NCBI RefSeq assembly: GCF_965363235.1
Contig: NC_134846.1
Location: forward strand, 74,188,724-74,252,723
Direction: 5' to 3'
DNA: 64,000 bases
Source of the DNA: Mytilus galloprovincialis
Lineage: Eukaryota > Mollusca > Bivalvia > Mytilida > Mytilidae
The notes below the pieces were generated by a model. It was not told the DNA's origin. It worked only from the letters and a program-made list of their open reading frames with translations, and searched no databases. The position numbers and the translations under genes were made by a program. This document shows, in pieces, positions 6,973-64,000 of this stretch. Position 1 is the stretch's first letter. Each line of letters starts with the position of its first letter.

Positions 6973-9900
6973 CTTGAGTTCATCTGTTTCATTGTCTTTA
7001 GATGAGTACACACTGTTTACACTTCCTCTATCACTGGTCCCATCAACTGAATCAGTATGTGTTGTCAACCTATCTATACCAGATAAGGATGTCCTATTAC
7101 CCTTCTCTGGTGCCAGTGTAAACTGTGAATGGAAATCTTTTAGACTAGAAGATCGCTCTCTATGTAATCTGTTCCTCTCATTTGTATTTTTTGGTCGTGT
7201 GATGCCTGATCTCTCTTCTGGTTTCTTTGTCGCACTACTAGGTGGGGCTAGTGGTTGTGTCAATGCAGGCTGTGAAGCTGTCTGTCGGCTATTATTAGCT
7301 AGAGTTTGCCAGGTATTCCTTGGTAATGTGAAGTAGGGGTTATTTACAACCTTTGGATCATTAAGAATATTTTGAGCCCCATTTAACTTATCTAACTGTT
7401 CTCCTGACCTGCTGAGATACCGTGAAGCAGCCAGATCTAATCCAACCTCATCTGATGATAAATCATGTAGACTACTACTCTTACGCAGGCCATCCTGTAA
7501 GTGTTTATCTCCCTTGTGCTTCATATTTCGGACACCACGGTAGGTTACATAAGTTTCCTTTGGTTTGACTTTCTCTACCTGAAATCTACCTGTAGTAACA
7601 GCTGCTGTGTCAGCACTTTCACCTGACAATCTACCACTATCCAAAGGCTGAAATAATAAAGTATCATATTTTTAGAATCTTCAAAAAGGCATTTCCATAG
7701 ATATAAGAGGATGTGGTATGAGTGTCAATGAGACAATGTTCATTTCCAATTCATGTCATAAAACAATTAGAGAAATTACTTTGTTTATAGGACCCCATTG
7801 TAACTAATGTGTTGAGTTGTCTTAAGCAAATTATTTGTTTTATCAGCAGCCAAAGATTGAGAACAAGTGAACTGTTTCATATTTTACCAAGCATACATCC
7901 ATTCCTATTGATCTCAAAGGACAATTTTCAAAACTTGAATAACACAATATACTTTATCAGGCTGAAGTTTGAATAGGAATGTTCTGTTTTAAACAGATGT
8001 ATTTGTTATCAATTTAGAAAAGGAGAAGAGGAGAGTAATTCACTTGGTGAAATTTTAGAATAAGTTTTGATTTTTAAACAGATAAATATCTTACTGCTAT
8101 TTTGTCTTTGCTACTGAATATTGGCATGGTAAATCGTCTATTCTTTGGCTTCTGCAGACTTCTGGGATACACTACAAGAGCATCATGCCACCTGAATAAG
8201 AAAATTCAGCAAATTATTTTCTATTATTAATGCTAATCATGTACAGTCATTAATTTTAAGACAAAACAGATCTTTTGTATGCATTTAATTTTGGATTTCT
8301 GATGATCAATCAAATTGTTCATCTGTTTGGTTTTTTTTGCATGTTTTATGTACAGAATTATAAGAAATCATCGAAATTTATGTTTTTTATAACTAAAACT
8401 AAATCAGCTTTAGTCATTTCATACAAAGTAAAAAAATGAAAGTATTTGTGAAAATTTATTTCATACAATACTTCTTTAAATTAAGATACTAAAAAATATT
8501 TGTATATAATTTGTACACTATACTTGTTCATCCCTAAAACAGTCTGTATGATAATCACAAAAAAAATGAATTGTTCCAAAAACTACCATTTTTGGTCTGT
8601 ACATGAAATAACTGAATACTGATGCCTTATCTGGGTTTTTTTTTAAACATTACCACATAATTTCTTCCTTTGAGGCAGCTTTAATGTATGTTGTCTTGTC
8701 TGGTGTGATGACGGCCAAGGAACAGTGATGGGTTGTCAGTTTTTCTGCATCCTTCACCTCCGTACATTTATTCATATCTACTATCTGTTGGGGTATAGTG
8801 TCAGGCTGAAATGAAAACAATACTATTTAATAAGAAGGCAATTATACATTCTCTTAAATTAATCAGGTAATAGTCATAAATGGCAAATTTCAATTTCAGT
8901 TCATATCTGTATTTACAATATTTGAGAACCCTTGATCCACAAGCCTCTCCAAAATTAAAATCTTTCATAACTGATTATGTAAATAATTCACCCTTAAAGG
9001 TATTAGAATCTTTACTAGAGTAATCCACAATGGTATTTTTGTACCATTACTAGCATAACCAGAATAGAAAGAAGACAAGAAAAAATTTCAATAGTTTTAT
9101 TTATCTCCCTTTGCTGAAATTTCCAAATGAGATTTACAATGTTTCATCCCAAAAATTGAAAATAGAATAATTAAAGAAGTATGAATGTTTTGTCATTAAA
9201 AGTATAACTTACATCTTCATCCACATAGTATGACAGTTCTCCATCATCATACAATCGAAATAATCGTCGCTGCCATCTCTGAAATTATTAACAAACAGAT
9301 CAGTGATTATAGTTATTTTACAATGGCCACCACATGTTAATGTGAATGTAGAAAGGTCAAGGACCATGTCATTGGTATGCTTTTATAATTTGATTATAAC
9401 TTATATCTCAGTATTTTTGTTCTGTTGATGGTAGATCTTTGGGATTTCTATATACTCTCCCTTATTACTTAAAATTTCTCTTGACTTCAAGGATTCAGAG
9501 CTTGCGCCACTTGTCTATCAATGAAGATTACATATTGACTTCAATATGTTCTTTCTGTTTTTGTTATGATGGGTTGCTGCCTCATTGAAATACACCATCA
9601 TCTCCTTTCATTATAAATTATTACAGACTTCACAACAGTACAAATTTCCTAAATACATGTACATGTTTTATTTTTTTTGAGGTTTTTTTTTTGTCTTCTT
9701 TACCATGATTTTTAAGATGGCCGTGGAAAAAACTTTTCAGGTGCATATGTGTGTAAGAGGGATATGAAATATAAGCAATGTCAGTATTAATATGATGATT
9801 CAATTGTTGCGTAAAAACATATGTTCTTTATCCATACACATGTATATGGAAGGAGCCAAAGACACCTTACACAGAACACAACTAGTAATTTGGAGACTTT

Positions 9901-21759: not shown

Positions 21760-23402
21760 AGTCTAAAGAGTTATCATCAGAATTAGCGCCTGCTCTAGCA
21801 CACATCTTTCAATTCTCAATTAATGTTGGACAAGTTCCATAAGACTGGCGCATGCATGGCACATGTGGTGCCCCTCTTCAAGAAAGGAGACAAGAGTACT
21901 GCGGCAAATTACCGTCCCGTGTCTCTAACAGCAATTTGCTCCACAGTGATGGAGCACGTACATACTCCACTCAAAGATAATGGAACCTCTAGAAAAACAC
22001 TCCATTTTAACACCAGCCCAACATGGATTCCGCACAAAACGCTCATGTGAGACTCAGCTGATTGCCACTATTCATGAACTGGCAAATGGACTATCAGATG
22101 GCCAACAAATCGACGCAATACTATTAGACTTTGCCAAAGCCTTTGATAAGGTGCCACACAAGCGACTTCTCCATAAGCTCCAATAATATAGAGTCAGTGA
22201 CTATACTCTCAAATGGGTGGAGAGCTTCCTGAACAGTAGGAAACAACATGTTCTAGTGGAGGGAACAATGTCAGACGAAGCAGAGGTAGTTTCTGGTGTA
22301 CCACAAGGTACAGTAATTGGACCCCTGCTCTTTCTTGTCTTCATCAATGACCTCCCTGAATCGGTTAACTCTAACGTGAAATTGTTTGCTGATGACTGCC
22401 TGTTATATCGTCCTATTCGATCCACTAGCGATTCCACCAAGCTACAAGACGACCTTGATAAATTAGAAAAATGGGAAAATGATTGGCAAATGGCGTTCCA
22501 CCCGCAAAAATGTACCACCATCCATATAAGCAAGAAACGCAAACCCACCATATGCGATTACCATCTGCATGGCCATACCCTTGAAAGCGTCCCAGGGGGG
22601 AAATACCTTGGCTTATACATAAGCAAGGACTTGTCTTGGCGTGAGCACATTAACCAGATCACAGTCAAAGCTTCCAGATCTGTTGGGTTCCTGCGAAGGA
22701 ACCTCAGGAGTTGTCCTCAGGAGTTGTCCTCAGGAAGTAAAAAGCCAAGCCTACACAACTTTAGTAAGACCCGTCCTCGAGTACGCCAGCGCTGTCTGTG
22801 ATCCCTACCAGCAACAACAAATCCAACATCTGGAAAACGTACAACGCCAGGCTGCTAGATTCGTAATGGGGGACTTTTTTCTCGAGGGAACCAGGTTGTG
22901 TGACTAAAATGACTCAGCAACTAGGTTGGGAACCACTGGAACATAGGAGAGCCAGGAGCAGAGTCATCATGTTCTACAAGATAATAAACCATATTGTAGA
23001 AGTTCCTGTTCACCATCTGCTCAACTATCATGATACCAGAACCCGTGGTTCCGTGTCAAATAACATGACAGATAAGGACCAGACTGGACTGCTTTAAATA
23101 TTCATTCATCCCAGCCACCATCATATCCTGGAACAACATACCACCAGATATTCGAGCTTCCCCGTCTGTGGAACACTTTCGACACGCCATCCAAGATGCC
23201 AGCGTGTCGACACGCCATCCAAGATGTCAGCGTGTCGACACTACTCCACATCTAAATTACAGCACCGTTTTTAACTGTACAAACAGATCTCATTTTAACT
23301 GTACATACTTGAAGGTTTTTAGCTGTTCGATCACGCTGGAGTATATACACTCAAATATGAGTCCACTCCTTGACGGGAAGATAGATAGATAGATAGATAG
23401 TC
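21760..23402 (+). mobile_element. Decayed jockey/CR1-type LINE (reverse transcriptase fragment) with GATA tail
   Basis: Reverse-transcriptase blocks appear in order but in several frames: NYRPVSLTAICSTVMEH (about 21907), ILLDFAKAFDKVPHKRLLHK (about 22124), GVPQGTVIGPLLFLVFINDL (about 22293) and the catalytic LFADDCLLY (about 22383). After these come the thumb-like GKYLGLYISKDLSW and the usual C-terminal ENVQRQAARFV and LEHRRARSRVIMFYKIINH. The 5' part with the endonuclease is missing. At least four frame changes or stops interrupt it. One shift follows a local duplication of aggagttgtcctc (about 22707-22733), and a 34-bp duplication (cgacacgccatccaagatg) lies at about 23178-23245. The copy ends in a GATA run (23380-23400), as expected for a LINE 3' tail. 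Confidence 0.87.
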
Positions 23403-27073: not shown

Positions 27074-27826
27074 TGATCATAAAATATTTCCATACACCAA
27101 ATATAGTTGACCAATTGCATATAGTATTAGAAAAAAGACCAAAACTAAAAAACTTAACTTTGACCACTGAACCATGAAAATGAGGTCAAGGTTAGATGAC
27201 ACCTGCCAGCTAGATATGTTCACCTTACAATCATTCCATACACCAAATACAGTAGACCTATTGCATACAGAATAAGAGAAAAACAGACCAAAACTCAAAA
27301 ACTTAACTATAACCACTGAACCAAGAAAATGAGGTCAGGTCAGATGACACCTGCCAGTTGTACATGTACACCTTACAGTTCTTCCATACACCAAATATCC
27401 TAGACCTATCTCTTATAGTATTTGAGATATGGACTTGACCACCAAAACTTAATCTTGTTCACTGATCCATGAAATGAGGTCGAGGTCAATTGAAAACTGC
27501 CTGACGGGCATGAGGACCCCGAAGATATGACATACCAAATATAGTTATCCTATAACTTATAATGAGAGAATATTTAATATTACAAAAAATCTTAACCTTT
27601 TTTTCAAGAAGTCACTGAACCATGAAAATGAGGTCTAGGACATTGGACATGTGACTGACGGAAACTTCTTAACATTAGGCATCTATATACCAAGGATGAA
27701 GCATCCAGGTCCTAAACCTTCTAAAATATAGAGCTTTTAAGTAATTATCTAACATCGCCGCCTTAGCAGCCGGATCACTGTCCCTTTGTCTAGCTTTCTG
27801 CAACAAAATTCGCAGGCTCAACAAAA
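27074..27826 (+). mobile_element. Dispersed repeat family E, 5'-truncated copy
   Basis: Aligns with the fuller copy at 51955-52730 from its atcataaaatatt point onward, to the common end gcaggctcaacaaaaatga. It consists of about four ~148-bp units, each with cataccaaatatag-like and catgaaaatgaggtc words. It has one unit more than the other copy. Confidence 0.72.
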
Positions 27827-45409: not shown

Positions 45410-46690
45410 GGATACATAAATGGATTGGAAGCCGCTTTGTATGAAAAGACAATATCCAACTTTCCCATTATAATGTCCAAATGAGTAGACAATATCCAAT
45501 TTGCCCTTTAAAGGGTTCCAAATGAATAGACTATATTCAATTTTCCCATTTGAGAGTCCAAATGAGTAGGCAATATCCAATTTTCCCTTTAGAGGGTTCC
45601 AAATGAATAGACTATATTCAATTTTCACATTAGAAAGTCCAAATGAGAAGGCAATATCTAATTTTCCCATTAGAGAGTCCAAATGAATAGACAATATCAA
45701 CTTTCCCATAAGAGGGTTCAAATTGAATAGACAATATCAACTTTCCCATAAGAGGGTTCAAATTGAATAGACAATATCCAACTTTCCCATTAGAGTCAAA
45801 ATGAATAGATGATATCCAATTTTCCCATCAGAGAGTTCAAATGAATATGCAATATTCAATTTTCCCGTTAGAGAGTCCAAAAGAGTAGACGATATCCAAT
45901 TTTCCCATTAGAGGGTTCCAAATGAATAGACGATATCCAACTTTCCCATTATAAGAGTCCAAATGAGTAGACAATATCCAATTTTCCCATTAGAGGGTTC
46001 CAAATAAATAGACTACCGGTATATTCAATTTTCCAATTATAAGAGTCCAAATGAGTAGGCGATATCTAATTTTCCCATTAGAGGGTTCCAAATGAATAGA
46101 CAATATCCAACTTTCCCATTAAAGAGTCCAAAATGAATAGATAATATGCAATTTTCCCATTAGAGAGTCAAAATGAATAGACAATATCCGACTTTCCCAT
46201 CAGAGGGTCCAAATGAATAGACAATATCAACTTTCCCATAAGAGGGTTCTAAATGAATAGACGATATCCAACTTTCCCATTAGAGAGTCAAAATGAATAG
46301 ATGATATCCAATTTTCCATCAGAGAGTCCAAATGAATAGGCAATATCCAACTTTCCCATCAGACGGTCCAAATGAATAGACGATATCCAATTTTCCCATT
46401 AGAGGGTCAAAATGAATAGACAATATCCAAAGTTCCCATTAGAGGGTCCAAATGAATAGATGATATCAAACTTTCCCAATAGAGGGTCCAAATGAATAGA
46501 TGATATCAAACTTACACATTAGATGGTCCAAATGAAAAGAGGATATTCAACTTTCCCATTAGTGGGTCCAAATGAAAAGACAATATCCAATTTTCACATC
46601 AGAAAATCCAAATGAATCAGACTACCGGTATATCCAACTTTCCAATTAGAGAGTTTAAATGAATTGACAATATCCAACTTTTCCCATTAA
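45410..46690. repeat. Minisatellite, ~40-bp unit, about 30 copies
   Basis: Repeated unit of the form aaatgaatagacaatatccaa followed by ctttcccattagagggtcc. Two recognisable variants (tccaattttccc versus tcaactttccc) are interspersed. Unit length varies by one or two bases. On the minus strand part of the array stays open for about 106 codons (45401-45721), a by-product of the unit length. Confidence 0.92.
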
Positions 46691-49481: not shown

Positions 49482-51348
49482 TTAATTCTGTTTGACTTTC
49501 TTTTGTGTTGTTCTAGGAAGGCTGTATGATTGTGTCATAATCTGGAAAAACCAATAAAATCCAAATGTACAAACACCACAAATAACTGCAATATATTCAG
49601 CATGGTTAGGAAATTTTGTTCCACAAATTGTATAATAATCTGTGCCAGGCTTTGGTAAATTCTTCACACAGTGGAAGTCAAAAATGGCTTCGTCATAGTG
49701 GTCCAAACATAGATATTTATTCTTTGCCAACACCTGAAATACAAAAAATAAATATTAGACATATATTCCAAGTTAGTGTGCCATTTCACAGTCTTCTCAA
49801 ATAGATCTTTTTAACGGACAAGCCCAAAAATTAGTCTTAGATACAATTTCTTCAAACTCCTATGATTTACGAAGCCTTTTTGCAGGAAAATTCATTCAGC
49901 TGACAACCTTTTTACTGGCCATGGCATTAGAGCTTATTTTGATGTCCTTGGTTGTATAATATGCAGACTCTAAATAAAGGTTATTTATTATTATCATGGG
50001 TAATCATGAAGACTGCTCTCACAATATCAATAGGCAAAAAAACATAAAGCCCTGGTTGCGCTACCATTTTCTATGTTCAGTGGACAGTGAAATTATGGTC
50101 AAAACTCTAATTTGGCATTAATTAGAAAGTTCATATCAGAAAGAACATGTGTACTAAGTTTCAAGTTGTTTGGACTTCAACTTCATCAAAAACTACCATG
50201 ACCAAAACTTTAACCTGAAGCGGGTCAGACAGATGAACAGACCAAAAACCATAATGCCCCTAAGTGGGGCATATAAAATTCTGTTTTTTTTTCAACTGTT
50301 CTACTCATTTTTCTTTGATTAGAATATTCAAATATTGAATTTATTCATTTAAATTTATGTACTAAGTTTTCAATAAGTCTGTCTCAGAATTGTGACAAGA
50401 TTACTTTTGAAATACAGTGCTTATTTTAAGAAGAACAATTGCAGCCAAATTATAATTACAATAGCATATCTTAAAAATTAATATGAGGCATAAAACATAA
50501 ATTCAGACAACTAGAGGCTCTGTGTCGCTCACCTTGGTCTATGTGCATATTTAACAAAGGACACAGATGGATTCATGACAAAATTGTGTTTTGGTGATTG
50601 TCATGTTTACTTATTATTAGATCTTACTTTGCTGAACATTATTGCTGTTTACAGTTTGTCTCCATCTATAATAGTAGTCAAGATAATAACCAAAAACGGC
50701 AAAATTTCCTTAAAATTACTAATTCAGGGGCAGCAACCCAACAATTGGTTGTCTGATTCATCTGAAAATTTCAAGGTAGATACATCTAGACCTGATAAAC
50801 AGTTTTACCCACGTCAGATTTGCTCTCAATGCTTTGGTTTCAGAGTTATAAGCCAAAATCTACATTTTACCCCTATGTTCTATTTTTAGCAATGGTGGCC
50901 ATCTTCGGTGGTTGGCCGGGTCACCAGACACACTTTATAAACTAAATAAACCAATGATGATTGTGGCTAAGTTTGGTTAAATTTGGCCCAGTAGTTTCAG
51001 AGGAGAAGATTTTTGTAAAAGTTAACAAAGACGACAACGATGGATGCCAAGTGATGAGAAAAGCTCACTTGGCCCTTTAGGCCAGGTGAGCTAAAAAGTG
51101 AGAAGAATAATATATATTCAACAAGTAGAATAATAATATATCATCCCCTTTTCAAGGTAACATAATAGTTAAAGATTTCAAACTTACATGACCAAATGCT
51201 GTATAGACTGGTACGGTTTCCTGACAAGCTCCTACTGGTTCGTGGAGACCTGTGACTACATTATTCTCTGGTTTAGATATGAATACAAGAATGACATAGA
51301 ATCCATAATGCAGGATTAAATGAAGCAGGATCTCGCTGTTGTATTTAT
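49482..51348 (-). CDS. Unrecognised membrane protein, last two exons, partial
   Basis: Two exons join in phase on the minus strand: 51188-51348 (after acceptor gtattttag, ending at donor CAT|GTAAGT) and 49482-49733 (after acceptor tatttcag, to TAA). Together they encode 136 C-terminal residues. There is a hydrophobic stretch in exon 1 (LLHLILHYGFYVILVFI), then a Cys-containing loop (GACQETVPVY, YLCLDHYDEAIFDFHCVKN, YYTICGTKFPNHAEY), a second membrane segment (IAVICGVCTFGFYWFFQI) and a short basic tail ending KKVKQN, which fits a KxKxx ER-retrieval signal. I infer a multi-pass protein of the ER or early secretory path with the loop in the lumen. Upstream exons lie to the right, beyond repeats and probably beyond the Helentron; none could be chained. 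No family is recognised. Confidence 0.72.
49900..49998 (+). repeat. Possible retroposon 3' tail
   Basis: ctggccatggcattagagct ... ctaaataaaggttatttatt followed by ATT-type repeats. Similar in form to 12060-12150. Confidence 0.35.
50052..50272 (+). repeat. Dispersed repeat family B
   Basis: Contains catgtgtactaagtttcaag, a shortened gacagatgaacagacc run and cataatgcccctaagtgggg. Lies in the intron of the unrecognised membrane-protein gene. Confidence 0.75.
50512..51096 (+). repeat. Dispersed element with gctcacc / ggtgagc ends
   Basis: Starts near agaggctctgtgtcgctcac and ends gccctttaggccaggtgagc, short inverse ends around gctcacct. The interior includes ggcagcaacccaacaattgg and ggtggccatcttcggtgg. 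An open frame of 104 codons at 50575-50889 is not recognised. Confidence 0.55.
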
Positions 51349-51535
51349 CTAAAATACAATTCTCTAGGTTAATCAAATAACATGTGATATATTTATAACA
51401 TAGTCTATGTTGTTCATTACATTAAGTTAAGCCAAAACATTTATGTGATATAATACACAAATGTAATCATACCTTTTATGTCATTATTGATCATGCCATC
51501 ATATATCTGATAAACTTACCACAGTGTAAATAAAA

Positions 51536-51950
51536 ACCAGATGCTTGCAGGGCACAGCTTTATACGACCGCTGAGTTCGAACCCTGAACAGTTGGGGCAA
51601 GTATGGACACAACATTCAAGCTTGATACAGCTCTGAATTTGGATTGTGATTAAATAGTTGACACAACATAGGTTTCTGATACAGAATGAATGTGGTCTAA
51701 GAACCTAAACTTAAAAACTTATAAATTTTAAATTGGACATTTACCTATTATGGTCCAATATCCAAAATCTAAATACATGGTTAGATTCAGAATATCAAAG
51801 AACCCCAAGAATTCAATTTTTGATGAAATCAAATAAAGTTCAATTTTGGACCCTTTTGACCTCAATGTGGACCAATGACCTCAATGTGGACCAATTTGAT
51901 AACCGGGCCCAAATATCAAAAATCTAAATACATGTTTAGATTCAGCATAT
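51536..51950 (+). repeat. Partial copy of repeat family A
   Basis: Carries the head (ccagatgcttgcagggcaca, gctttatacgaccgctgag, gggcaagtatggacacaaca) and two ~130-bp units, then stops where the family E element begins. Confidence 0.72.
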
Positions 51951-51954
51951 ATAA

Positions 51955-52730
51955 AAACAAGAGGCTCTCAAGAGCCTGAATCGCTCACCTGGTAAACAAT
52001 GCCTTATTGAACATATTGAACCATGCCAGGCAAACATGTACAGCTAACAATTCTTCAATATTACAAATATATATGACTTACTGTTTATAAATAAAGAAAA
52101 TGAGACCAAAACACAAACACTTAAAACTTAGCAATGGACTGTGAAAATGAGGTCAAGTTCAAATAAAACCTGCGTAACTGACATATAGATCATAAAATAT
52201 TTTCATACACCAAATATAGTTGACCTAATGCATAAAGTATTAAAAAAATAGACCAAAACTAAAAAAGTTAACTTTGACCACTGAATTATGAAAATGAGGT
52301 CAAGGTTAGATGACACCTGTCAGCTAGACATGTACACCTTACAATCATTCTATACACTAATTTTAGTAGACCTATTGCATATAGTATAAGAAAAACAGAC
52401 AAAACACAAAAACTTAACTATAACCACTGAACCATGAAAATGAGGTCAAGGTCAGATGACACCTGCCAGTTGGACATGTACACTTTACAGTTCTTCTATA
52501 CACCAAATCTACTAGACTTATTGCTTATAGTATCTGAGATATGGACTTGACCACGAAAATTTAACGTTGTTCACTGATCCATGAAATGATGTCGAGGTCA
52601 AGTGAAAACTGTCCGACAGGCATAAGGACCTTGCAAGGAACGCACGTACCAAATATAGTTATTCAATTCTGCCGCCGGATCACTATCCCTATATCAAGCT
52701 AACTGCAACAAAAGTTGCAGGCTCGACAAA
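51955..52730 (+). mobile_element. Dispersed repeat family E, fuller copy
   Basis: Begins with the small palindrome gaggctctcaagagcctg and ends gcaggctcgacaaaaatga. The body consists of about three ~148-bp units with tccatgaaaatgaggtcaag-like words. A truncated copy is at 27074-27826. Mechanism not identifiable. Confidence 0.7.
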
Positions 52731-52926
52731 AATGATCAAGACAATTTTTTTAACTAATCATTTATTAAGAGAAAAAAATCACACTATTTTGCTTTTTACG
52801 TTTTATTTATATACATATCTAGTTGATTTCACAATAAATAACAATGCATTTATTTCCTTTATGGAGATAGAATGTGTCATGCTTCTATGGAGATACATTT
52901 ATAAAACATTCTCTTCTCAGAAAGTC

Positions 52927-52957
<31 letters not shown>

Positions 52958-54133
52958 TCAGCCTTTTACATCTCACTCAACTGTTGAATTAGTCCATGCT
53001 TCATGCATACTAGTCAATCATTATAGTAAATGTCCTTGTTAGATTTTATAACAGTGCAATATATATTGCTTACAATATTCTCTACACATCAACATATAAA
53101 TTGAATCAAAAATACAGTTGAAAGTGTTTAGTACATAAGCAGTTATAAAAAAGAGTTCTTAAACAACAATATATACTCATGAAAAATTATAGAAACAAAT
53201 AACAAACTATCATTTAAATCAGATCCATAAAGTTTATTATATGACCATAGATGACTTTTTTGTTTTGTCTGGCCCTGCGACACTGTCGCATATGCGAGTC
53301 TAGTGTCTGTATTGGGAGACTGATCTCCTGCATATGTATCAGGTTTTTATGCCACCACATTCTTGTTTGTTATTCGTGCATGGCACAGGACACCTGTTAT
53401 CCTAGCATAGACCCTGACATTACATTATACCAGAACTTTTCTTCGAGCTATTTCTTATAATATAAATGTTTTTAAAAAATTTGCTTGCTTTAAAAAAAAA
53501 AAGGTTATTGCTAACATTTAAACCTGTTTTATAACTGCTTATATACTAAATACTTTTAACTGTATTAAAACATGTATATCGTGAAGTGATTTATTTTTCT
53601 ACAATTATTTTAACAACATGAAGATCATTCATCTTATCTGATACTTGTACTATTAAATTATCAAGATTATATCACAGCCATCACTATATGCTACAAATTG
53701 ATCAATCAACTACAAATATCAAAGAATTTAAAAATAAAACACAAATGATACCTCAATTATTGTTCTTAAAACATTTCAAAATGTTTCAATAAAAATTATT
53801 CAACATTTATTCTAATGGACCAAAAAATATATCCTAGATTCTCATCCCCTTTATACATGTACCCAATTTTTCCAGCCTTCACAATAAATTATTTAGATTT
53901 TTTGTCACATTTTCTTATAAAACTTAAGTATGTTTGAAAGCAGTATTAATGGTAATGGTCCTTTTGGCTCCAGATGTAGCAAAATTTTGAAATGTGGATT
54001 ATTTCTTTGTGTGATATATAATATTTGATATAAACATGTTTAACAAAATATAATAATCTTGGTTTTCAGAGGCCAATTATGCCCCTTACCATTCATACTC
54101 TTTTAACTGTATTGTCAGTTCCTTCCACAATTA
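52731..54133. other. AT-rich DNA, no gene seen
   Basis: Contains a TA microsatellite at about 52927-52952. No acceptor- and donor-flanked coding stretch was found on the minus strand for the gene at 49482-51348. Confidence 0.5.
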
Positions 54134-54379
54134 CACAGGCAAATTTTGTTCACGTGAATTTTATGTGAATTTAATTTTCACTTGAAATTCATGTGATGAA
54201 TTGAGCTTATACATGAAATTCGTGTGAACTCATTTCATTTGAGTTTCACATGAATATCATTTACATGAATTTGTTTTGATGTGAAATTCACATGAATTTT
54301 TTCACGTGAATTTCACAATCATTTCATGTGAATTTCACATGAATTTGTGTGAAATTCACATGAACAAAATTTGTCTGTG
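54134..54379. mobile_element. Foldback MITE made of palindromic ATTCACATGAA units (~246 bp)
   Basis: The ends CACAGGCAAATTTTGTTCAC and its inverse (gaacaaaatttgtctgtg) enclose a series of alternating gtgaatttcacatgaa and ttcatgtgaa words, so that almost the whole element can fold on itself. No coding content. No clear target duplication. Confidence 0.72.
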
Positions 54380-54439
54380 ACCCCATGCAACCTTTATAAG
54401 ATGGTGAGGGGAACCCATGAGCAAAAATAACCCCTCTTT

Positions 54440-54479
54440 GGACATTTAAGGTTGTTCTATTGAACAAACTTAAATGTCC
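54440..54479. other. Hairpin after the Helentron ORF, probable 3'-end structure
   Basis: GGACATTTAAGGTTGTTC, loop TATT, then GAACAAACTTAAATGTCC: an 18-bp stem with one mismatch, 42 bases beyond the stop codon of the helicase-endonuclease ORF. Helentrons end in a stem-loop near the 3' terminus, so this is the likely right boundary. The exact cut point is not established. Confidence 0.6.
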
Positions 54480-54520
54480 AAAAAAATGTGGTGGGTTTTA
54501 CACTTCTTACTTTAATATGT

Positions 54521-57052
54521 TTAATGTAACTGAACTGTAACATAAATAATCTGATGGTCGGACCAATAGGCATCAAGAATATCTGTCTCATAATGAAAAA
54601 TTTTATCAATATTTAGGAAAATATGATCTAATAATGTTGTGTATAATCTGGTAGGCTTAGTAAGAATTTGGGAGCACATAAATGTGTCCAACATAAAGTT
54701 CAGGAAATTATCATGTCCAGATAGCAAATCAAAGTTAAAATCTCCCATTATAATTAAATTTGAGTGTTGTAAATCCAAAGTAGGAGCAAGATCATAGAGG
54801 AAAGCTGTCTTCAAATCTTTAAGGGAACATTCTGATGCTCTGTAGACAAACACTACTTGGAAGAGTCCTTTGTTAGGCACAATTATTTCCACTAGTAGAA
54901 ATTCTAATGTAGGTGTTGAATAAGGCAATTGTCTTTGAAGTAAACAGCCATTTTTCAAGAATACAACAAGTCCATGTGGAGGTCTAGTATTTGGATGTTT
55001 TTGATTTTGATCAACTCGAATAGGTGTTTGAAATCCAGGAAATAAGTAATTTTCGTTGCAATCTGAAGGAATTAACCTTGATTCTGCGATACCAATGACA
55101 TCAGCATCCATAATGCTGGGATCTGCTCTAATGTCTTCGTGATGCAAATGCATAGATCTCGAATTGTTAAAAACCACCTTGAAATTTTCACTTGGCAAAG
55201 AATACAGTGGTTTGAAACACAATGAAAGGACCGCCTCAGATTTCAATCTCTCAACTTCATCCTTGACACAGTCAGACACAGCAATATTTTTTCGATTCAA
55301 GTTAAGTATTTGCAATCCTGATAAAGTTGTTACTCTGCTTAAAGCAACATAATGAATATGAGGAATCTTCCCTTTGCATTTAGAATCAAGACTCACAACT
55401 ACTTCTTTTAAAGTATCACCTTGTGACTTGTGGATTGTTTTTCCAGCAGCAGGTCGAAGAGGCATCTGGATTCGTTCAAAATTTTTGTATCTATAACTAA
55501 ATGATCTCTTAATATCAAAAACTGGTGTCCATCTTTTGTCAATATTTTGACTGTACAAGTGGCTATACTTTTTTCTTGTATTTGTTCCAATTTTCTCATC
55601 ATTAAATTTGACCCATACTATACTTGGTCTTTGCGATTTCGTCTTGTACTCAAATAATTTCACCTGACAAGATGAACCATTGGTGAGACCATCTGTTACT
55701 TCAATGTTAGCTGTTAGATCATATTTCATTCCAATAGCTAGCTCCACTTCTTTGGCTAAATTGGCTGTGTCAGACTGCTTTCCAGGTAAAGAACTGATCA
55801 ATTTTGCTTTAATAGGAGGGGAAAAGTCTCCAACTACGGTGTCTACAGCTTTTACACTTACTTTCTCAGATGTCAAATTTGTTATAAACTTGTTGTTAAA
55901 TTTATCAACAAGATCATTTTGTACAAATAAGTGTGTACTGTTTTTATTGTATGATTGATCTTCAATCCGGACAGTCCTTGTATCAAGAATAGCAAAATCA
56001 TTGTCATTGAGATTATTAAGTCTCAACCTATTCAACAACTCTGCAAACTCTATATCATCTTTTTGTCTCATTATCTGTGTAAGTTCATGAACCTTAAATA
56101 ACTCCTTCCACAAATTAGGAGAAAGAGCAGATATGCCTTTGTTAAGATCTTGAAAAATCCAACCATCAAATACTGGCTTCAGTTGAAAGAAGTCTCCAAT
56201 TGCAATCACACTTACACCTCCAAATATCTGGTTGCTGCCTTTGATTTTCTTTAATCTAGCATCCAAAAGGGAGAACATTTTGTTTCCAACCATTGAGATT
56301 TCGTCAATCATTACAACTGATAAATTTCTATATTTCATTCTTAGAGTATTTAGAACATCACATGACAGAGATTGATTTAATCCTTTATTGGGCTGTATTT
56401 GAAAAGCATTATGTATGGTCAAACCATTAATATTATAGGCTGCTTTTCCCGTTGGAGCACATAACAGAATTCTTATATCATCAGGATCTTCACCTTCGGT
56501 GGAACACAAATGTCTATGCAGTGCTTGAAATAGAGCTTTGACTACTACAGATTTTCCTACACCTGCACCACCTGTCAAGAACAGATACAATGGGTCACAT
56601 TTTCTTTTAATCCATGTGAGTACATGAAGGAAAAATTCTCTTTGTTTATTATTTAAAGACCGTATGAGCTTGTAATAGTCATCATCTTCAATGCGATTGG
56701 CATGACTTTTTACATCTATTATTCTAGCTGCTACACCAACTTCTTCTGAAATATCATAATGTCTATGTTCTGTTGGTCTATCTGGGTTGAAATGTACATA
56801 CTGATCTGCCTCTGTTGACCCTTCTTCAACATCTTCAAGCTCTACTTGCTGAGTTCCAGGAGCTATTTCATCATATTGATGGCAATCATTCTCTGCTTCC
56901 TCAATGGCTTTGTCAAGTTTTTCAACATTATGTTCATACTGTTTGGCTTTACTCTCTACTATTCTTCGAACAGAATTGTACATACTTTCATACGTTTCGT
57001 TTGTTCCCTTTAGATCAGATTGTTCATTTCTCCAAGGATAGAACAGTAGCAA
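54521..57052 (-). CDS. Helentron PIF1-type helicase plus C-terminal endonuclease (second reading frame)
   Basis: 843 codons. The helicase core shows Walker A TGGAGVGKS (about residue 165), Walker B MIDEISMVG (about 56300), GDFFQLKPV (about 56190), AAGKTIHKSQGDTLKEVVV (about 55430) and HYVALSRVTTLSGLQILNL (about 55340), all PIF1/RecD-family motifs for 5'-3' unwinding during rolling-circle transposition. From about residue 650 follows an AP-endonuclease-like domain: DADVIGIAESRL, LIIMGDFNFD, LLDHIFLN and WSDHQIIY, with the catalytic Glu, Asp-Asn and Asp-His in place. The frame overlaps the end of the Rep frame (57010-57052). Its first ATG falls in the motif LLLFYPWRNE, which in related proteins lies mid-protein, so this is the second half of one polyprotein-like enzyme and not a separate gene. 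Confidence 0.9.
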   Translation of the reverse strand: MLLFYPWRNEQSDLKGTNETYESMYNSVRRIVESKAKQYEHNVEKLDKAIEEAENDCHQYDEIAPGTQQVELEDVEEGSTEADQYVHFNPDRPTEHRHYDISEEVGVAARIIDVKSHANRIEDDDYYKLIRSLNNKQREFFLHVLTWIKRKCDPLYLFLTGGAGVGKSVVVKALFQALHRHLCSTEGEDPDDIRILLCAPTGKAAYNINGLTIHNAFQIQPNKGLNQSLSCDVLNTLRMKYRNLSVVMIDEISMVGNKMFSLLDARLKKIKGSNQIFGGVSVIAIGDFFQLKPVFDGWIFQDLNKGISALSPNLWKELFKVHELTQIMRQKDDIEFAELLNRLRLNNLNDNDFAILDTRTVRIEDQSYNKNSTHLFVQNDLVDKFNNKFITNLTSEKVSVKAVDTVVGDFSPPIKAKLISSLPGKQSDTANLAKEVELAIGMKYDLTANIEVTDGLTNGSSCQVKLFEYKTKSQRPSIVWVKFNDEKIGTNTRKKYSHLYSQNIDKRWTPVFDIKRSFSYRYKNFERIQMPLRPAAGKTIHKSQGDTLKEVVVSLDSKCKGKIPHIHYVALSRVTTLSGLQILNLNRKNIAVSDCVKDEVERLKSEAVLSLCFKPLYSLPSENFKVVFNNSRSMHLHHEDIRADPSIMDADVIGIAESRLIPSDCNENYLFPGFQTPIRVDQNQKHPNTRPPHGLVVFLKNGCLLQRQLPYSTPTLEFLLVEIIVPNKGLFQVVFVYRASECSLKDLKTAFLYDLAPTLDLQHSNLIIMGDFNFDLLSGHDNFLNFMLDTFMCSQILTKPTRLYTTLLDHIFLNIDKIFHYETDILDAYWSDHQIIYVTVQLH

Positions 57053-60000
57053 TCGTTCCCTGTAAAAATTTTCGGATCTGTTTTTCTATTGTATCGGACA
57101 TACCTAATCACTTTTTGTGATTTTCTTTGTCGAATGATTATGCCATTTTTAAGAGTAATTTTTATTTTTTTATGATTCTCATTTGACATTTCTAGCTCAT
57201 CTTCAGTTTCAGACTCATTCTCTGACTCACTTTTGTTTTGTTCGTCATCTGAAGCAGGAAATTTCACTTCAAGTTGAGATATGTAGTCTGCAAGACACCA
57301 GTTTTGTAGAAGTGCTGGTCTTTTTGAATAACGTTTGATGTCATTGTTTGACTCTACATCAGTAGAATCAGGGGATAATTTTTCAAGCTCTGATGTTTGT
57401 TTTAGCAAGAAAGTTCTCTTGTCAGGTGGAGAAGTGTTTATGAATACTACATGTCTGGTAGCTTTTGTCAGAGGCATTTGTAGCAATAAATACACAGCTT
57501 CTTGAGCACAGGTTTCGACTGAATTTGTAAAATAATTTCCAATGTGCCTAACTTGTCGCTTGAGGTCCAAATTTCCTTCTCTAGCTTCCTTTGCAGCTTG
57601 GTCTAGCAATCCACTCATTCCCTTTTGAGACTTGCTTATATATGAAACAATGTATACAGCACATGCATATGGATCTAGGACAAACTGCAAATCATGATTT
57701 GCTTTCCATGCCGGTAATAATGCTTTCATGTATGGATTTACACGAACTTCACTTGGCTTTCTTTTAAGGAACACTTTTGCACTAGATAGATTGCTTCTGA
57801 TTGCTTTAATATAATCCTCTCGACTTAACTGTAATACATTGTTAAGAAGCTCATCAAAAGTAATATCTTCAACATTATCCATTGTATAAAGTGAATCGAC
57901 CTTGGTTTGGACTTCTTTATAAATTGCCTTGTATTTATCAATATCTTCATCTAATGGTTCTAAAATTACTGTCTCATCCAAAGGTGGCAAAGGAAACCCA
58001 AAGCGACATATTGGCCGACCTTTAGTTCTGCAAGTCTTTGAATGTTTGTGAACTTGTAAACTAACCAAATCAGATGGAGCAGATGATAATGAACAACTTA
58101 CATATTTGTCAATAAACTGAACGAGGTCTTCATTTGAATCCTGTTCATAAATTGGAGCATTTTCAATCCATATCAACATGTGAATGTGGGGTGACCCTCT
58201 TTGTTGAAATTCAACACGATAGAAATAATCAATCACTTTCCCAATAGGGTCATGATCACTCTGTAAAACTGTCTTGATGAATTGTTGGACACGATAATCA
58301 AAAAACCTAGAGCATGTGACAGGATCTTTCTGTACTAGTCTGGACTTTGTATTCCAGTCCATTTGATCCAATTCATCATCAGAATAATATTTACCATCAT
58401 TCAACTTTCCAAGAATTCTAAGTAAATCCTTCCAATTTGTATCTGCTGAAGAAAAGGAACCAAACCATGTCGGTAAACCTAACTGTCTGATCATTGCAAA
58501 TACATCTTTCTTTCTCTTCTCAAGGTAAACAGGAGAGTTTCTAAGTGATCTGAAAATGTAATATCCTTCATCTAACTTTACTATATCATTCACAGTTGAA
58601 GGGTTCAAAAAGTCTCTTACTGTCCATTTTTTCCCTTCTGATTTGCATCTACGTAAGGCAAGATTTACTCTATCATTTATATGTTTCATTTGTATTTTCT
58701 TTAATTTGAAAAACAAATTTGGTACTGACTGTGCAACTCTTCTGTCTACAGATCTCAGTTCCCACTTTACAATATCTGAATAATGCACAGAAACTAATCT
58801 TTCTTTGCTATCTGGTCTGCGTTGTCCACAAAATATACTTGGGAATGCTAAATACTCAGCATCTGTGTCATTGTACAAACTCAATGGTCTCTGCCCTTCA
58901 CCAGGAGCAAAAACATACTGAGAACTGCCTGTGTCACTGGTCTCATCGAACACTTCGTCTAAAAGCGTGTCAGTATTTCCTGCATGGAGTTCCTCCTCAT
59001 TGATTTCATCAAATTTATCACCTGTGCTTGTTTCTTCATCTTCATTGCTGGTATTATTGGCTACTTCACTTTCATCATTGTTTTGTACAGCAGTGATTTC
59101 TCTTATCCAGTTTTGATCTATTTGTACACCAGAGGTTTTGTACAAGTCACTATTCTGCATAAGATAATGCAATGCACAAAGTACAGCAAATGGCCTAACA
59201 TTCTCACTGAAATCACATTTGTTATATGACAGTTTTTTTTTCAGTTTTATTGGTATTGTACCTGATTTCTCCAGAGTATGAGGAAGGGAATTAATTGTAG
59301 GTTGTACATCGACAGGTACATTTACTACATTTCCTTTGACTGAAAGTTGACCTCCTCGTGGTAACAACCGAATTTGCATAAATGGTATTCTTAATGACAA
59401 TAACCTTTCTTCTAATGGATACAGATTCAATTCTATTGGTTTTACTGGAAATCCCATTTTATTTGCAACAGAAAGCCTTGGTATTTTATTTTGTCTTATA
59501 GATTGTAAACATGTATTGCAAATCCATTCAATATTGTTGACAGATTTTCTATCAGTAAAACATTGCTTCAAATCACCCTTAACTGTCTGCTTTATTCTAC
59601 AAGCATTAACAACTGAATTACTAAACCATGTCTGAGTACATGATGTGCACAGGTAAGTCGGACCTTCAATAATGTTTTTAGAAAATATATCAATGCATTG
59701 TTCAAGAGAAGAGCCTTGCTGTTTTTGTTTCTTTAATTTTGATTCATGACAGGCAAATTCTTCTGCCTTCCTCTTTTGACTCTTAACTGATCTATCATAG
59801 TTTCTAATCTTGGATCGATCTCTATTTCTAGAAGCTTGTTTACATAATCTTTCTTTTTCATTCACTTGGTCATCCTTTCTAGCTTTTCGCTTGGCATCTA
59901 ATTCTTTCTGTCTGACTTCATCATCCCTTCTCATTTTTCGCTTGGCATCTAGTTCTTTCTGTCTGACTTCATCATCCCTTCTCGTTTTTCGCTTGGCATC

Positions 60001-61821
60001 TAGTTCTTTCTGTCTGACTTCATCATCCCTTCTCGTTTTTCGCTTAGCATCTAGTTCTTTCTGTCTGACTTCATCATCTCTTCTCGTTTTTCGCTTGGCA
60101 TCTACTGCTTTCTGTCTGACCTCATCATCCTTTCTCGTTTTTCGCTTGGCATCTAGTTCTTTTTGTCTGACTTCATCATCCCTTCTCGTGTTTCGCTTGG
60201 CATCTAGTTCTTTCTGTCTGACTTCATCATCCCTTCTCGTTTTTCGCTTGGCATCTAGTTCTTTCTGTCTGACTTCATCATCCCTTCTCGTTTTTCGCTT
60301 AGCATCTAGTTCTTTCTGTCTGACTTCATCATCTCTTCTCGTTTTTCGCTTGGCATCTACTGCTTTCTGTCTGACTTCATCATCCTTTCTCGTTTTTCGC
60401 TTGGCATCTAGTTCTTTTTGTCTGACTTCATCATCCCTTCTCGTGTTTCGCTTGGCATCTAGTTCTTTCTGTCTGACTTCATCATCCCTTCTCGTTTTTC
60501 GCTTGGCATCTAGTTCTTTCTGTCTGACTTCATCATCCCTTCTCGTTTTTCGCTTGGCATCTAGTTCTTTCTGTCTGACTTCATCATCTTCTCTAGCCTT
60601 TTGTTTAGCATTAAGCTCTCTTTGGTGTATGTATGGATCTTCCCTTCTTCTTTGCATGTATGTTTTCATATATACCTTACGTTTATCACATTCGTCTGTC
60701 AGGGCTTTGGTCGAAATTTGAATTATATTTCTACGATTTTGATCTTTAAAATAACTATTAATCTGCCTCTGAAGTACTAATGAGTTGTCCATGTCAATTA
60801 ACTTCACTGGAAGAATTTCATACTGTGACTGTAAATCAATATGCATGCTTGTGTAGTGAGAGTACATATAATTCACCAGACTTTGGATGTCTCTGAATCC
60901 TATGAGTATTGACATGCCTTTAGACTCTCGTGGCTCATATAAACCAGACTTGTCATGTGAATGAGAGTCAAAGAAAAAATAAGTATCGTTGTCAAAATAA
61001 ACACCAGAACATATAGCGCCTATCATAACTAAAGCAGCCTTAGCCTTTTCAAATGCTTCTACAAGGGCTTCTTGTAATGTAAGGAAGTCATTTGTTGAAT
61101 CAAATTGAACAGCAGTACCAAACAAGACATTTTTTCTTTCCACTATAATTTTTTGTCCTCTAATTTCAAAGACATTTGGAATTTCGTTTAAAGTCAATAA
61201 CATGTTTCTAAATCTACCTTCCTGTTTGAGATTCTGCACAGTTTTGAGATAAACTTGATCTCCTATTTCTAAAATATCATCTAAGTTATACTGTTGGTCA
61301 TCTATATTCTTAGTTGCAAAGGCCAAATAAATTAAACAATTGCACGTGCATTGATTTCCTCTAGTAAAATTGGAAAAACGACCATCAAATTGATCAAAAC
61401 TTCCAAAAGTCAACGTAACATTATCAAAAATATGAAGAGCATTTATTACTGAGTAGTTCATAGGTGTATCATTCGCATATTCTTTAGTATTTTTACTTTT
61501 AGTATCAGTAAGAATAGTTCTTGTTTTCCCACAAGGGGCATAATTTGCAATCTGTTCAGTTTTCCTACAAGAGGTGAAATGTACAATCTGCTCAGTTTTC
61601 CCATAAGGGGCATGCTCAGTTTTTCTGTTTTTAGGGAGGACAGACTCCTCAGGCTCATTTTCAATAGTATTCCCACAAGGGGCATTTGTTTTTCTGTTTT
61701 TATAAATGAGGGCAGACTCCTCCTCTCTGTCATCTACTGAGTGTTGGTCACCAGTCTTCGTCATTGGATTGGCAGCCCCCATGATGGCTTTGGAACGTTT
61801 CCAGTTCTTTCTTCTAGGCAT
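57010..61821 (-). CDS. Helentron N-terminal part: protease-like domain, 17-residue repeats, Rep nuclease
   Basis: The frame is open from 62025, but the likely start is the ATG at 61821 (MPRRKNWKRSKAIMGA), just after an acceptor-like tttcgcag, giving 1603 residues. Approximate layout: repeated APCGKT-type segments (residues 60-110); a cysteine-protease-like domain (115-365) with Gln-Cys in GNQCTCNC (Q157/C158-C162) and Asp-Ser-His at 285-287; fifteen 17-residue repeats (399-653); CxxC pairs (CTSC near 727, CNTC near 771); a DUF6570-like region (ELNLYPLEERLLSLRIPFMQ); and the Rep domain with HUH motif SPHIHMLIW (about 1213) and the two-tyrosine motif VYIVSYISK (about 1391). Rep nicks and joins DNA at the transposon ends. 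The frame ends at 57010, out of phase with the helicase part. Confidence 0.88.
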   Translation of the reverse strand: MPRRKNWKRSKAIMGAANPMTKTGDQHSVDDREEESALIYKNRKTNAPCGNTIENEPEESVLPKNRKTEHAPYGKTEQIVHFTSCRKTEQIANYAPCGKTRTILTDTKSKNTKEYANDTPMNYSVINALHIFDNVTLTFGSFDQFDGRFSNFTRGNQCTCNCLIYLAFATKNIDDQQYNLDDILEIGDQVYLKTVQNLKQEGRFRNMLLTLNEIPNVFEIRGQKIIVERKNVLFGTAVQFDSTNDFLTLQEALVEAFEKAKAALVMIGAICSGVYFDNDTYFFFDSHSHDKSGLYEPRESKGMSILIGFRDIQSLVNYMYSHYTSMHIDLQSQYEILPVKLIDMDNSLVLQRQINSYFKDQNRRNIIQISTKALTDECDKRKVYMKTYMQRRREDPYIHQRELNAKQKAREDDEVRQKELDAKRKTRRDDEVRQKELDAKRKTRRDDEVRQKELDAKRNTRRDDEVRQKELDAKRKTRKDDEVRQKAVDAKRKTRRDDEVRQKELDAKRKTRRDDEVRQKELDAKRKTRRDDEVRQKELDAKRNTRRDDEVRQKELDAKRKTRKDDEVRQKAVDAKRKTRRDDEVRQKELDAKRKTRRDDEVRQKELDAKRKTRRDDEVRQKELDAKRKMRRDDEVRQKELDAKRKARKDDQVNEKERLCKQASRNRDRSKIRNYDRSVKSQKRKAEEFACHESKLKKQKQQGSSLEQCIDIFSKNIIEGPTYLCTSCTQTWFSNSVVNACRIKQTVKGDLKQCFTDRKSVNNIEWICNTCLQSIRQNKIPRLSVANKMGFPVKPIELNLYPLEERLLSLRIPFMQIRLLPRGGQLSVKGNVVNVPVDVQPTINSLPHTLEKSGTIPIKLKKKLSYNKCDFSENVRPFAVLCALHYLMQNSDLYKTSGVQIDQNWIREITAVQNNDESEVANNTSNEDEETSTGDKFDEINEEELHAGNTDTLLDEVFDETSDTGSSQYVFAPGEGQRPLSLYNDTDAEYLAFPSIFCGQRRPDSKERLVSVHYSDIVKWELRSVDRRVAQSVPNLFFKLKKIQMKHINDRVNLALRRCKSEGKKWTVRDFLNPSTVNDIVKLDEGYYIFRSLRNSPVYLEKRKKDVFAMIRQLGLPTWFGSFSSADTNWKDLLRILGKLNDGKYYSDDELDQMDWNTKSRLVQKDPVTCSRFFDYRVQQFIKTVLQSDHDPIGKVIDYFYRVEFQQRGSPHIHMLIWIENAPIYEQDSNEDLVQFIDKYVSCSLSSAPSDLVSLQVHKHSKTCRTKGRPICRFGFPLPPLDETVILEPLDEDIDKYKAIYKEVQTKVDSLYTMDNVEDITFDELLNNVLQLSREDYIKAIRSNLSSAKVFLKRKPSEVRVNPYMKALLPAWKANHDLQFVLDPYACAVYIVSYISKSQKGMSGLLDQAAKEAREGNLDLKRQVRHIGNYFTNSVETCAQEAVYLLLQMPLTKATRHVVFINTSPPDKRTFLLKQTSELEKLSPDSTDVESNNDIKRYSKRPALLQNWCLADYISQLEVKFPASDDEQNKSESENESETEDELEMSNENHKKIKITLKNGIIIRQRKSQKVIRYVRYNRKTDPKIFTGNDCYCSILGEMNNLI
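59863..60627 (-). repeat. 51-bp coding tandem repeat, exactly 15 units, with five-unit higher-order period
   Basis: Unit RQKELDAKRKTRRDDEV (17 residues) occurs 15 times without a break (765 bases). Variants NT, RK and AV mark units so that units 1-5 and 6-10 have the same variant order, a 255-bp higher-order duplication. The first (HQRELNAKQKAREDDEV) and last (ending RKARKDDQV) units are degenerate, as at the edges of a growing array. The charged, Ala-containing units are predicted to be helical or coiled coil. The plus strand is also open across the array, an artefact of the repeat. Confidence 0.95.
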
Positions 61822-62025
61822 CTTGAATGACTGCGAAATCACAAAAGAATGTGTAAAAATCATCAAATGAACAAGAGAACTTTCGAACATAGGCATCCTC
61901 AAGTTGGAACTCTGTTGTATGTGGGGACAAGAAACTGATTTGTTATTTATTGCTTTCATGAACTCTGTTTTTGTTGAAGCTAGGAGCATCTGTAACTTTG
62001 ACACTAACAGTGTACATGTAATCAA

Positions 62026-63283
62026 TCATCATGCACCTAAGACTTCTAATACAGACTGAAATAATACTCACATGTGTATTTCATGTTGGTAAATATTTTT
62101 TGTATAAATTACAATTTTTTCTTTGAGCAAACGTTATTTTTTTCGAAATGCACTCTTGTTTCAGTTTAATAAAAATATTTAGGATTATCCTTTAATGTTA
62201 TGAACTTGAAGTGTTTCATATATATATATAAAAATAGAAGACACTTACGGCACTGAATTATCTACTTTTTACATTTACACATAATAAACTCTGGCCAAAG
62301 TCGTTTCTTACTTAATCAGATGTTCATTCTGATTCTTTCAACAAGATCATTAATGTGCCTTAGTAATCGTTATCAGGCATATACAAGAGCTTGGAAAAAT
62401 ATCAAATGCAAATGTTTCTTTTGGGTTAAATTTGTACAACACTGAATATTGTATTCATTCAGTCTATAAAACTTTTAAAAGACCTAGAATAAATAGATTA
62501 TCTAATAACCAACAAGATTTTGCAATGGACGAAATGACGAATTCCTGTGAACAGTATGATTTCTATCATATCTTATATACAACAACTTTACATCACTATA
62601 TCATGTATACAAACAATTGGCAAGGTCTTTTAGCCACTCTAGATTTCAAGTGCTGTACCTAAAACAACTCTAATACACATGAAATCTCGAGTTGATTTTG
62701 ACCAGTCGGAACTACTATTTTTGTAATGTTGCACACTACAAATAACTAAGTTATTGTGTTCTGATTACATTTTGGAACTTTTTAATGCAAAATGCAGCTT
62801 TATCAAACAATTTAAAAATGAAACATAACACAGTTTGTTTTATAAGACTTGGTTGCAATTAATAAAAATTAAAAACAATGCATATAACATTCAGAAGTAG
62901 GATAATTTGCCTTAACTCATTATACCCCCCATGAAGCAAACAAAATCGCTGGAGTCTAGATACCATTAAAGGAAAGCTGCCTTTAAAAACATGCACTACA
63001 TTGTAAATGTACATGAACTGCATAAAAATACAGATATACTGCATATTGCTCTTATTTCTATTTCTTGTAAATGTACACGAACTGCATAAAAATACAGATA
63101 TACTCCATATTGCTCTTATTTCTATTTCTAGAGAAATCCAAAAACTAACATACATGTATAGTGCATTGTGTAATATAATTTTGGCATAAAATTTTGAATT
63201 GTGGTGATTTTATTCTTATCAATTCAATTTATGTATGGATAATCATTCACTATAGCGCTTGTATTTGTGAAAAAACAAAAATG
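62026..63283. other. AT-rich flank of the Helentron; no gene seen
   Basis: A TA run lies at about 62219-62230. No sequence matching the 3' hairpin region was found that would mark the 5' terminus. Short open frames near 62432-62662 are unrecognised. Confidence 0.5.
63001..63128. repeat. 64-bp tandem duplication, two copies
   Basis: ttgtaaatgtacatgaactg begins at 63001 and recurs at 63065 with only two visible differences: a recent duplication. Confidence 0.9.
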
Positions 63284-63930
63284 TGTCCAAAGTACACGGA
63301 TGCCCCACTCGCACTATCATTTTCCATGTTCAATGGACCGTGGAATTGGATAAAAAAAATATAATTAGGCCTTAAAATTAGAAAGATAATATTATAGGGA
63401 ACATGTGTACTTAGTTTCAAGTTGATTGGACTTCAACTTAACCAAAAACTACCTTGACCAAAAACTTTAACCTGAAACATGCACTTTCATTTTCTATGTT
63501 CAGTGGACCGTGAAATTGTGGTCAAAAGTTTAATTTGGCTTTAATATAAGAAAGATCATATCATAAGGAACATGTGCACTAAGTTTCAAGTTGATTGAAC
63601 TTCAACTTCATCAAAAACTACCTTGACCAAAAACTTTAACCTAAAGCGGGACAGACGGACGAACGAACAGACGGACGGACGCACAGACCAGAAAACATAA
63701 TGCCCCTCTACTATCGTAGGTGGGGCATAAAGATTGAACATTTGATCTTGTTTATTATGCTCAGGGGACAAAGAAAATATATCTGGACACTTCAACTTCA
63801 CCAAAAACTACCTTGACCAAAAACTTTAACCTGAAGCGGGACAGACAGACGAACGAACAGACAGACAAAGGAACGGACGCACAGACCAGAAAACATAATG
63901 CCCCTCTACTATCGTAGGTGGGGCATAAAA
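63284..63930 (+). repeat. Two to three stacked copies of dispersed repeat family B
   Basis: The head (tgtccaaagtacacggatgc, ccactcgcactatcattttc) is followed by the middle block twice (about 63300-63470 and 63480-63640), then the gacggacgaacg run and the end ctctactatcgtaggtgggg. A second end block with the same run and terminus follows at about 63780-63930. Confidence 0.75.
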
Positions 63931-64000
63931 ATTGAAGATTTGATCTTGTTTATTATGCCTAGGGGACAAAGAACATATATAGGAACAATGGTACCACAGT

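Follow-up and report, generated by a model that had tools for sequence, protein, structure and literature searches.

Is the run of Rep, helicase and endonuclease sequence on the minus strand of a 64,000-nucleotide stretch of Mytilus galloprovincialis DNA the core of a mobile element that has moved recently, and which other elements might depend on it? The stretch, hereafter the window, is contig NC_134846.1, positions 74,188,724 to 74,252,723 (C9:74,188,724-74,252,723). We consider it very likely (roughly 0.93) that this sequence belongs to a Helentron of approximately 16.0 kb, represented by three recently moved close coding copies, which is the probable coding partner of a large family of HINEs. 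This direct link to a large HINE family is the main interest of the element.

Termini and classification

Both ends of the element were mapped by comparing copies across the 1.38-Gb host genome. A search for the 3' end used positions 49,800-52,790 as the query, and the best 40 of 22,171 candidates were scored. The main matching piece stops at query positions 834-851 in 38 of the 39 other scored places and at 880 in one, a boundary near 51,957 in the window. When 11 of these ends were set side by side (the window, the close coding copies C3 and C10, and eight chosen others), all 11 carried AGGTGAGCGATTCAGGCTCTTGAGAGCCTCTTG, then TT, and then unrelated sequence. The junction itself, CTCTTG|TT with target T|T, falls in a T-run at 51,953-51,957. 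Just inside it on the minus strand (51,962-51,990) are the 3' palindrome AGGCTCTTGAGAGCCT (51,962-51,977) and the 3' subterminal repeat AGGTGAGC (51,983-51,990), both recognized from the compared ends and from genome counts.

The 5' end lies 3.97 kb past the window and consists of a T-run, AGCTCACCTGGCC, its inverted repeat GGCCATGTGAGCT and a GTC microsatellite. In a search across this terminus, for which the best 40 of 2,896 candidates were scored, 34 of the 39 other places start at query positions 47-49, inside or adjoining the same T-run, and the remaining five start 6-20 bases further out (query 28, 40, 40, 40 and 42). Because of these two mapped ends, we assign the element to 51,958-67,967 in window numbering (minus strand, 16,010 bp). 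The portion inside the window is 51,958-64,000, with a 3' end that is sharply common to copies, and the 5' part, read beyond the window, continues to C9:74,256,690. An earlier note on this DNA had given an extent of 7.3-7.6 kb, which describes a real coding core but less than half of the element.

Judged by its sequence features, the element is a Helentron. The Rep motif 2 rule for Helentrons in section 7 of Thomas et al. 2014 (PMC4067079), F/Y..R followed by ExQxRGSPHxH, is matched by FYRVEFQQRGSPHIH. The PIF1 helicase motifs are present, an endonuclease that is weak by score lies C-terminal to Rep and helicase, and the ends have subterminal inverted repeats (5' AGCTCACCTGGCC...GGCCATGTGAGCT, 3' AGGTGAGC plus the palindrome) at a TT/T-run insertion site. 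Canonical Helitrons end in CTRR at the 3' side and insert between A and T. Assignment to that class was rejected, since the 3' end here is CTTG|TT and Rep motif 2 has S rather than L.

Coding frames and protein domains

Two open frames on the minus strand, the orientation of all the protein features below, make up the coding part. The upstream frame of 1,671 amino acids (aa; 57,013-62,025, or 57,010-62,025 with its stop) contains the VTD (viral-tegument-like) domain, a repeat region, DUF6570 and Rep, and the downstream frame of 854 aa (54,524-57,085, or 54,521-57,085 with its stop) contains the helicase and endonuclease. Their overlap at 57,013-57,085, between the Rep and helicase parts, is the frame break of the window copy and fits the single frame change that the earlier note had described. 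The HUH, two-tyrosine, PIF1 and endonuclease (GDFN and SDH) motifs on which that note based its Helentron call are all readable and agree with the Pfam matches, and a second reading of the HUH and Walker motifs revealed no inactivating change.

Rep is matched by Helitron_like_N at 58,171-58,620 (aa 1136-1285; Pfam expect value, E = 4.5e-27) and has the Helentron-type ExQxRGSPHxH. Within it, the HUH motif reads VEFQQRGSPHIH (58,180-58,215), and the two-tyrosine motif YIVSYISK follows at 57,631-57,654. The PIF1-like helicase (55,331-56,656; Pfam PIF1, E = 3.3e-26) retains motifs I to VI, including Walker A GGAGVGKS, IDEISM, GDFFQLKPV, IHKSQG and YVALSRV. The C-terminal AP-type endonuclease domain (54,524-55,300), which falls below the Pfam cut-off, is recognized by AESRL, FVYRA, GDFN (54,734-54,745), LLDHI and SDH (54,554-54,562).

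Three features of the upstream frame had escaped the earlier note. At 60,952-61,401 there is a predicted VTD deubiquitinase that matches Herpes_teg_N in Pfam (aa 209-358, E = 2.6e-13) and PF04843 in a separate scan (E = 7.4e-15). It aligns with 8ADD, the structure of a zebrafish Helentron VTD deubiquitinase (E = 1.4e-19), over both the cysteine stretch and D-x-H, so the predicted catalytic residues, Cys in NQCTCNC and D-x-H in FFDSHSH, are kept. Between this domain and DUF6570 (59,104-59,493; Pfam E = 1.7e-17) are 14 tandem units of 17 aa (51 nt) that are rich in lysine, arginine and glutamate (59,870-60,588). The length of this repeat region in C10 differs from that in C3 and in the window copy (C9). 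An NCBIfam scan returned weak, sub-cut-off matches, chiefly to generic helicases. An RPA gene occurs in some Helentrons and is not required. There is no RPA match in the two main frames and no RPA-sized second frame, the longest other frame listed from the start of the open reading frame (ORF) to the 5' end being 116 aa and none of those listed beyond the window exceeding 111 aa.

Close coding copies and recent movement

DNA comparison identifies two other close coding copies, C3, which is 98.9% identical along 10.4 kb, and C10, which is 97.7% identical along the 11.3 kb that falls in the window, and in both the similarity extends past the coding frames on either side. Over about 10.3 kb the copies differ pairwise at 61 of 10,319 sites (C9-C3), 97 of 10,302 (C9-C10) and 102 of 10,264 (C3-C10), a p-distance of 0.6-1.0%. 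Beyond the shared T|T end, their 3' flanks are mutually unrelated. These small differences together with the unrelated flanks support recent mobility of the family, which bears out the earlier suggestion that the element had moved recently. With its frame broken, the window copy has probably lost its autonomy.

Short relatives that share the ends

The terminal sequences are far more numerous than the coding copies. With up to two mismatches, the 37-nt 3' end has 1,863 genome matches (893 + 970) and the 56-nt 5' end has 1,207 (579 + 628); the reversed controls gave 0 in each case. Contig C1 has 66 exact 5' ends, of which 24 are paired with an exact 3' end on the same strand within 20 kb (wrong-strand control, 0), 23 of them at a spacing of 758-4,395 bp and one at 14,849. 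The short elements match the ends and noncoding blocks of the Helentron mostly at 96-99%, with some at 90-93%, and the junctions of C6, C11 and C5 show that each has lost a different internal stretch of the long element. Many places in the 3'-end search share just the terminal ~600 bp of that block. The Helentron family in the window thus probably supplies the coding partner for these short, nonautonomous elements, a large HINE family. With moderate confidence, we further favor the proposal that the source element of that HINE family is represented by three close coding copies, one of them in the window, and that it carries the satellite-like array of the HINEs.

If this proposal is true, a VTD-bearing Helentron would be the vehicle that disperses the tandem repeat genome-wide, supplying the partner link that work on oysters left open. 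Oyster genomes contain many short Helentron-like elements with satellite-like repeats whose partner was reported as unresolved, and in the cited passages the authors (2020) were unable to link any of 10 autonomous elements with them (PMC7492417). The cited part of another oyster study reports no autonomous element at all (PMC7992393). Helentron-HINE partner pairs are known from mite, Culex and Drosophila (PMC4067079, cited passages). A limited literature search, which included passages of PMC11136912, PMC12628747 and PMC12818792, found no other work on the partner of oyster-type HINEs. Here the coding element, its ends, the repeats and the short derivatives occur together in one assembly, and trans mobilization and repeat dispersal consequently become testable. 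The locus also adds a recently mobile family of VTD-bearing Helentrons.

The widely spaced pair of ends on C1 (C1:80051367-80066215; same strand, 14.8 kb apart) has no Helitron_like_N match between them. A nested insertion and captured cargo are candidate explanations.

Sibling elements and selection

More distant relatives are common in this genome. Among the best 40 of 415 candidates scored in a DNA search, three places including the window are near-identical and 37 are 69-72% identical. Genome-wide, 41 of 138 Helitron_like_N rows have an open frame of at least 2,500 aa (counted by eye; one has an internal stop within the match). Siblings that are ~71% identical account for 16 of the 41, and the other 25 may or may not be Helentrons. 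Six chosen sibling loci were fetched whole; five have a single frame of 2,536-2,665 aa with the same motifs, in which the endonuclease is fused to Rep and helicase, and the sixth (L045) is broken in two. The one sibling scanned with Pfam (L044) has the same domains as the window element. Since 16 siblings have open frames of more than 2,500 aa, intact relatives are not rare here, contrary to the earlier remark that intact Helentrons are uncommon.

The ratio of nonsynonymous to synonymous substitution rates (omega) is 0.10-0.12 for the helicase/endonuclease frame of the window against five siblings and 0.09-0.10 for the Rep half against two, with synonymous divergence (dS) near saturation in both comparisons; no dS value could be obtained for the VTD part. 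Among 10 sibling pairs, omega is 0.23-0.40. These codon comparisons indicate, to the extent that a dS near saturation permits, long-term purifying selection relative to the siblings.

The C3 copy is itself interrupted, at window position 63,141, by 14.88 kb that includes the Rep and helicase of a sibling, oriented the same way. The insert, which we infer to be one element, ends in AGCTCACCTGGCCCGAAGGGCCAAGTGAGCT (5') and GGTGAGCGACACAGGGTCCTTGGACCCTCTAG (3') within a T-run. Comparison of C3 with the window identifies the T-run at 63,138-63,142 as the empty site of this nested sibling Helentron, and the occupied site in C3 has two Ts more.

Proposed mechanism and alternative explanations

By analogy with its family, Rep would nick and join at the palindromic ends through its HUH/two-tyrosine center, the PIF1 helicase would peel off a strand to give a single-strand intermediate, and the AP-type endonuclease would help to open T-rich targets. 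The VTD domain could strip ubiquitin and may shield the transposition protein from degradation, a role suggested for such domains in the cited part of PMC9741609. The same Helentron protein may also mobilize HINEs in trans.

Several observations weigh against the overall reading. Frames are damaged in all three close coding copies, each at a different place: the window copy has one break between Rep and helicase, C3 has one break ahead of the two-tyrosine motif, and C10 has one break ahead of Rep, along with a premature stop in its endonuclease. Consequently the assembly shows no functional master copy, although single-base assembly errors are a possible source of the damage. In the parts that were counted, nonsynonymous and synonymous changed codons number 14:5 (C9-C3), 18:12 (C9-C10) and 22:9 (C3-C10), a pattern resembling decay free of constraint once the copies had inserted. 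Given the frame damage, the family might be dead and its short copies mobilized by a different Helentron family that is intact, the ~71% identical siblings for example. There are 16 sibling rows with open frames longer than 2,500 aa, and sibling ends share the AGCTCACCTGGCC / GGTGAGCGA core. However, the short copies match the 5' and 3' noncoding blocks of the window family itself, mostly at 96-99%, and we regard this alternative as possible but doubtful. It overlaps with the preferred reading to the extent that the partner claim alone would fall.

The three coding copies could also have arisen by segmental duplication rather than transposition, given that they share more than 10 kb, noncoding parts included, at 97.7-98.9% identity. 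The similarity nevertheless halts at the same T|T 3' end, where the flanks of C3, C9 and C10 differ, and many other places have the 5' terminus seen in the window copy. Duplication is accordingly rejected as very improbable on the evidence of the 3' flanks, in a comparison limited to the 3' side for C3 and C10. Domestication of a Helentron as a host gene would agree with the long-term purifying selection relative to siblings, but it is hardly credible for a sequence with broken frames in all three copies, intact transposon ends and many places that share those ends.

Recent transposition of a Helentron with a HINE family must also accommodate further points. For 42 of the 66 exact 5' ends on contig C1, no exact 3' end pairs with them over a distance of 20 kb, so many of the ends in the genome counts may belong to copies that are truncated or have diverged. 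Exo_endo_phos_2 scores below the Pfam cut-off both in the 854-aa frame (E = 0.0032) and for the domain alone (E = 0.00053); no relevant match to the endonuclease domain was found among PDB sequences, and its structure model has such low confidence (mean predicted local distance difference test score, pLDDT, 35.8) that it is unusable. The endonuclease assignment is weak by score and is the weakest point of membership, carried by the motifs and by sub-threshold Pfam matches in four of four family members (best E = 5.2e-5). Finally, aligning the flanks of copies, as the earlier note had advised, defined both ends, but the empty site of the window element is approximate only: a neighboring tandem unit taken as the empty site matches at 232 of 267 positions. 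The finding that the note said would tell against its reading, a genome with neither close copies nor an empty site, did not materialize, with that same reservation about the empty site.

Noncoding parts and other features of the window

The 3' terminal block (51,958-52,777, minus strand), which comparison of copies shows to be common to many short copies, contains ~147-bp tandem repeats at 52,034-52,533. A ~148-bp tandem unit at 27088-27409 resembles these repeats and possibly represents another HINE. The sharp boundary at 52,777 was considered as an element end or empty site and rejected, because C14, C3 and C10 show most simply a deletion junction of the window copy itself (52,775-52,778, in a T-run), at which C3 has ~0.7 kb and C10 ~3.8 kb of additional noncoding DNA. 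A ~480-bp insert in the 5' part of the window copy is absent from C3 and C10 and is held at many other places in the genome. The earlier description of the element as nearly intact is fair for the coding part, but in its noncoding DNA the copy has the ~0.7-kb loss relative to C3 and the 5' insert. A second candidate boundary at ~64,021 was rejected because C11, C6 and C5 each derive from a deletion with a junction of its own.

All three coding copies contain a 246-bp inverted-repeat block (54,134-54,379) within their 3' noncoding DNA. Directly past the stop codon is a hairpin (54,437-54,482, minus strand), and siblings have a similarly placed post-ORF hairpin by eye. Upstream of the ORF (63,311-63,980), tandem-repeat analysis identifies two satellite-like blocks, one of 169-bp and one of 198-bp units, and an array with a 499-bp unit lies between the 5' end and the ORF, outside the window.

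The insertion target of the window copy is an array of ~125-135-bp tandem units. Units of ~125-135 bp and ~161 bp recur at window positions 950-1952 and 3811-4944 and in the element flank (L056:980-1406). Elsewhere in the window are a tandem array of ~31 copies of a 40-bp unit (45441-46689), a plus-strand frame of 204 aa that by eye resembles a reverse transcriptase fragment (22187-22801; FADDCLLY), and a minus-strand open frame of 237 aa that is perhaps a host exon (6958-7671).

Comparison with known systems

Helraiser (PDB 7lcc), a bat Helitron, resembles the window element in combining an HUH Rep (E = 2.2e-4, a weak match) with a PIF1-type helicase (E = 3.5e-8). In the same alignment, however, Helraiser reads VIEFQKRGLPHAH with the Helitron-type L, whereas the window element reads VEFQQRGSPHIH with the Helentron-type S.

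The cited passages of Thomas et al. 2014 (PMC4067079) describe Helentrons and HINEs from mite, Culex and Drosophila. These have the same Rep-PIF1-AP endonuclease order in one protein and the same Rep motif 2, subterminal inverted repeats, 3' palindrome and TT insertion. Their deletion-derived HINEs (more than 95% identical in Culex) outnumber the partner, as they do here. Unlike those elements, the window element is ~16 kb long and has long noncoding parts, a ~500-bp array, a VTD domain and 17-aa repeats, and no RPA-sized second frame is seen in it. VTD domains in Helentrons have been published, with molluscs listed, in the cited part of PMC9741609. As in the zebrafish DrT1 VTD-bearing Helentrons of that study, a VTD domain with Cys and D-x-H lies inside the Helentron ORF; compared with the VTD-bearing Helentrons described there, the window element has a single VTD domain followed by 17-aa repeats.

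In noncoding structure the element also resembles the oyster Cg_HINE/Pearl elements as presented in the cited passages of PMC7492417. Both have a 5' subterminal inverted repeat with an inverted repeat and a short GTC-type microsatellite, satellite-like arrays, a 3' subterminal inverted repeat with a palindrome, and a T-rich target. Unlike in the oyster, a coding element with both of the same ends was found here.

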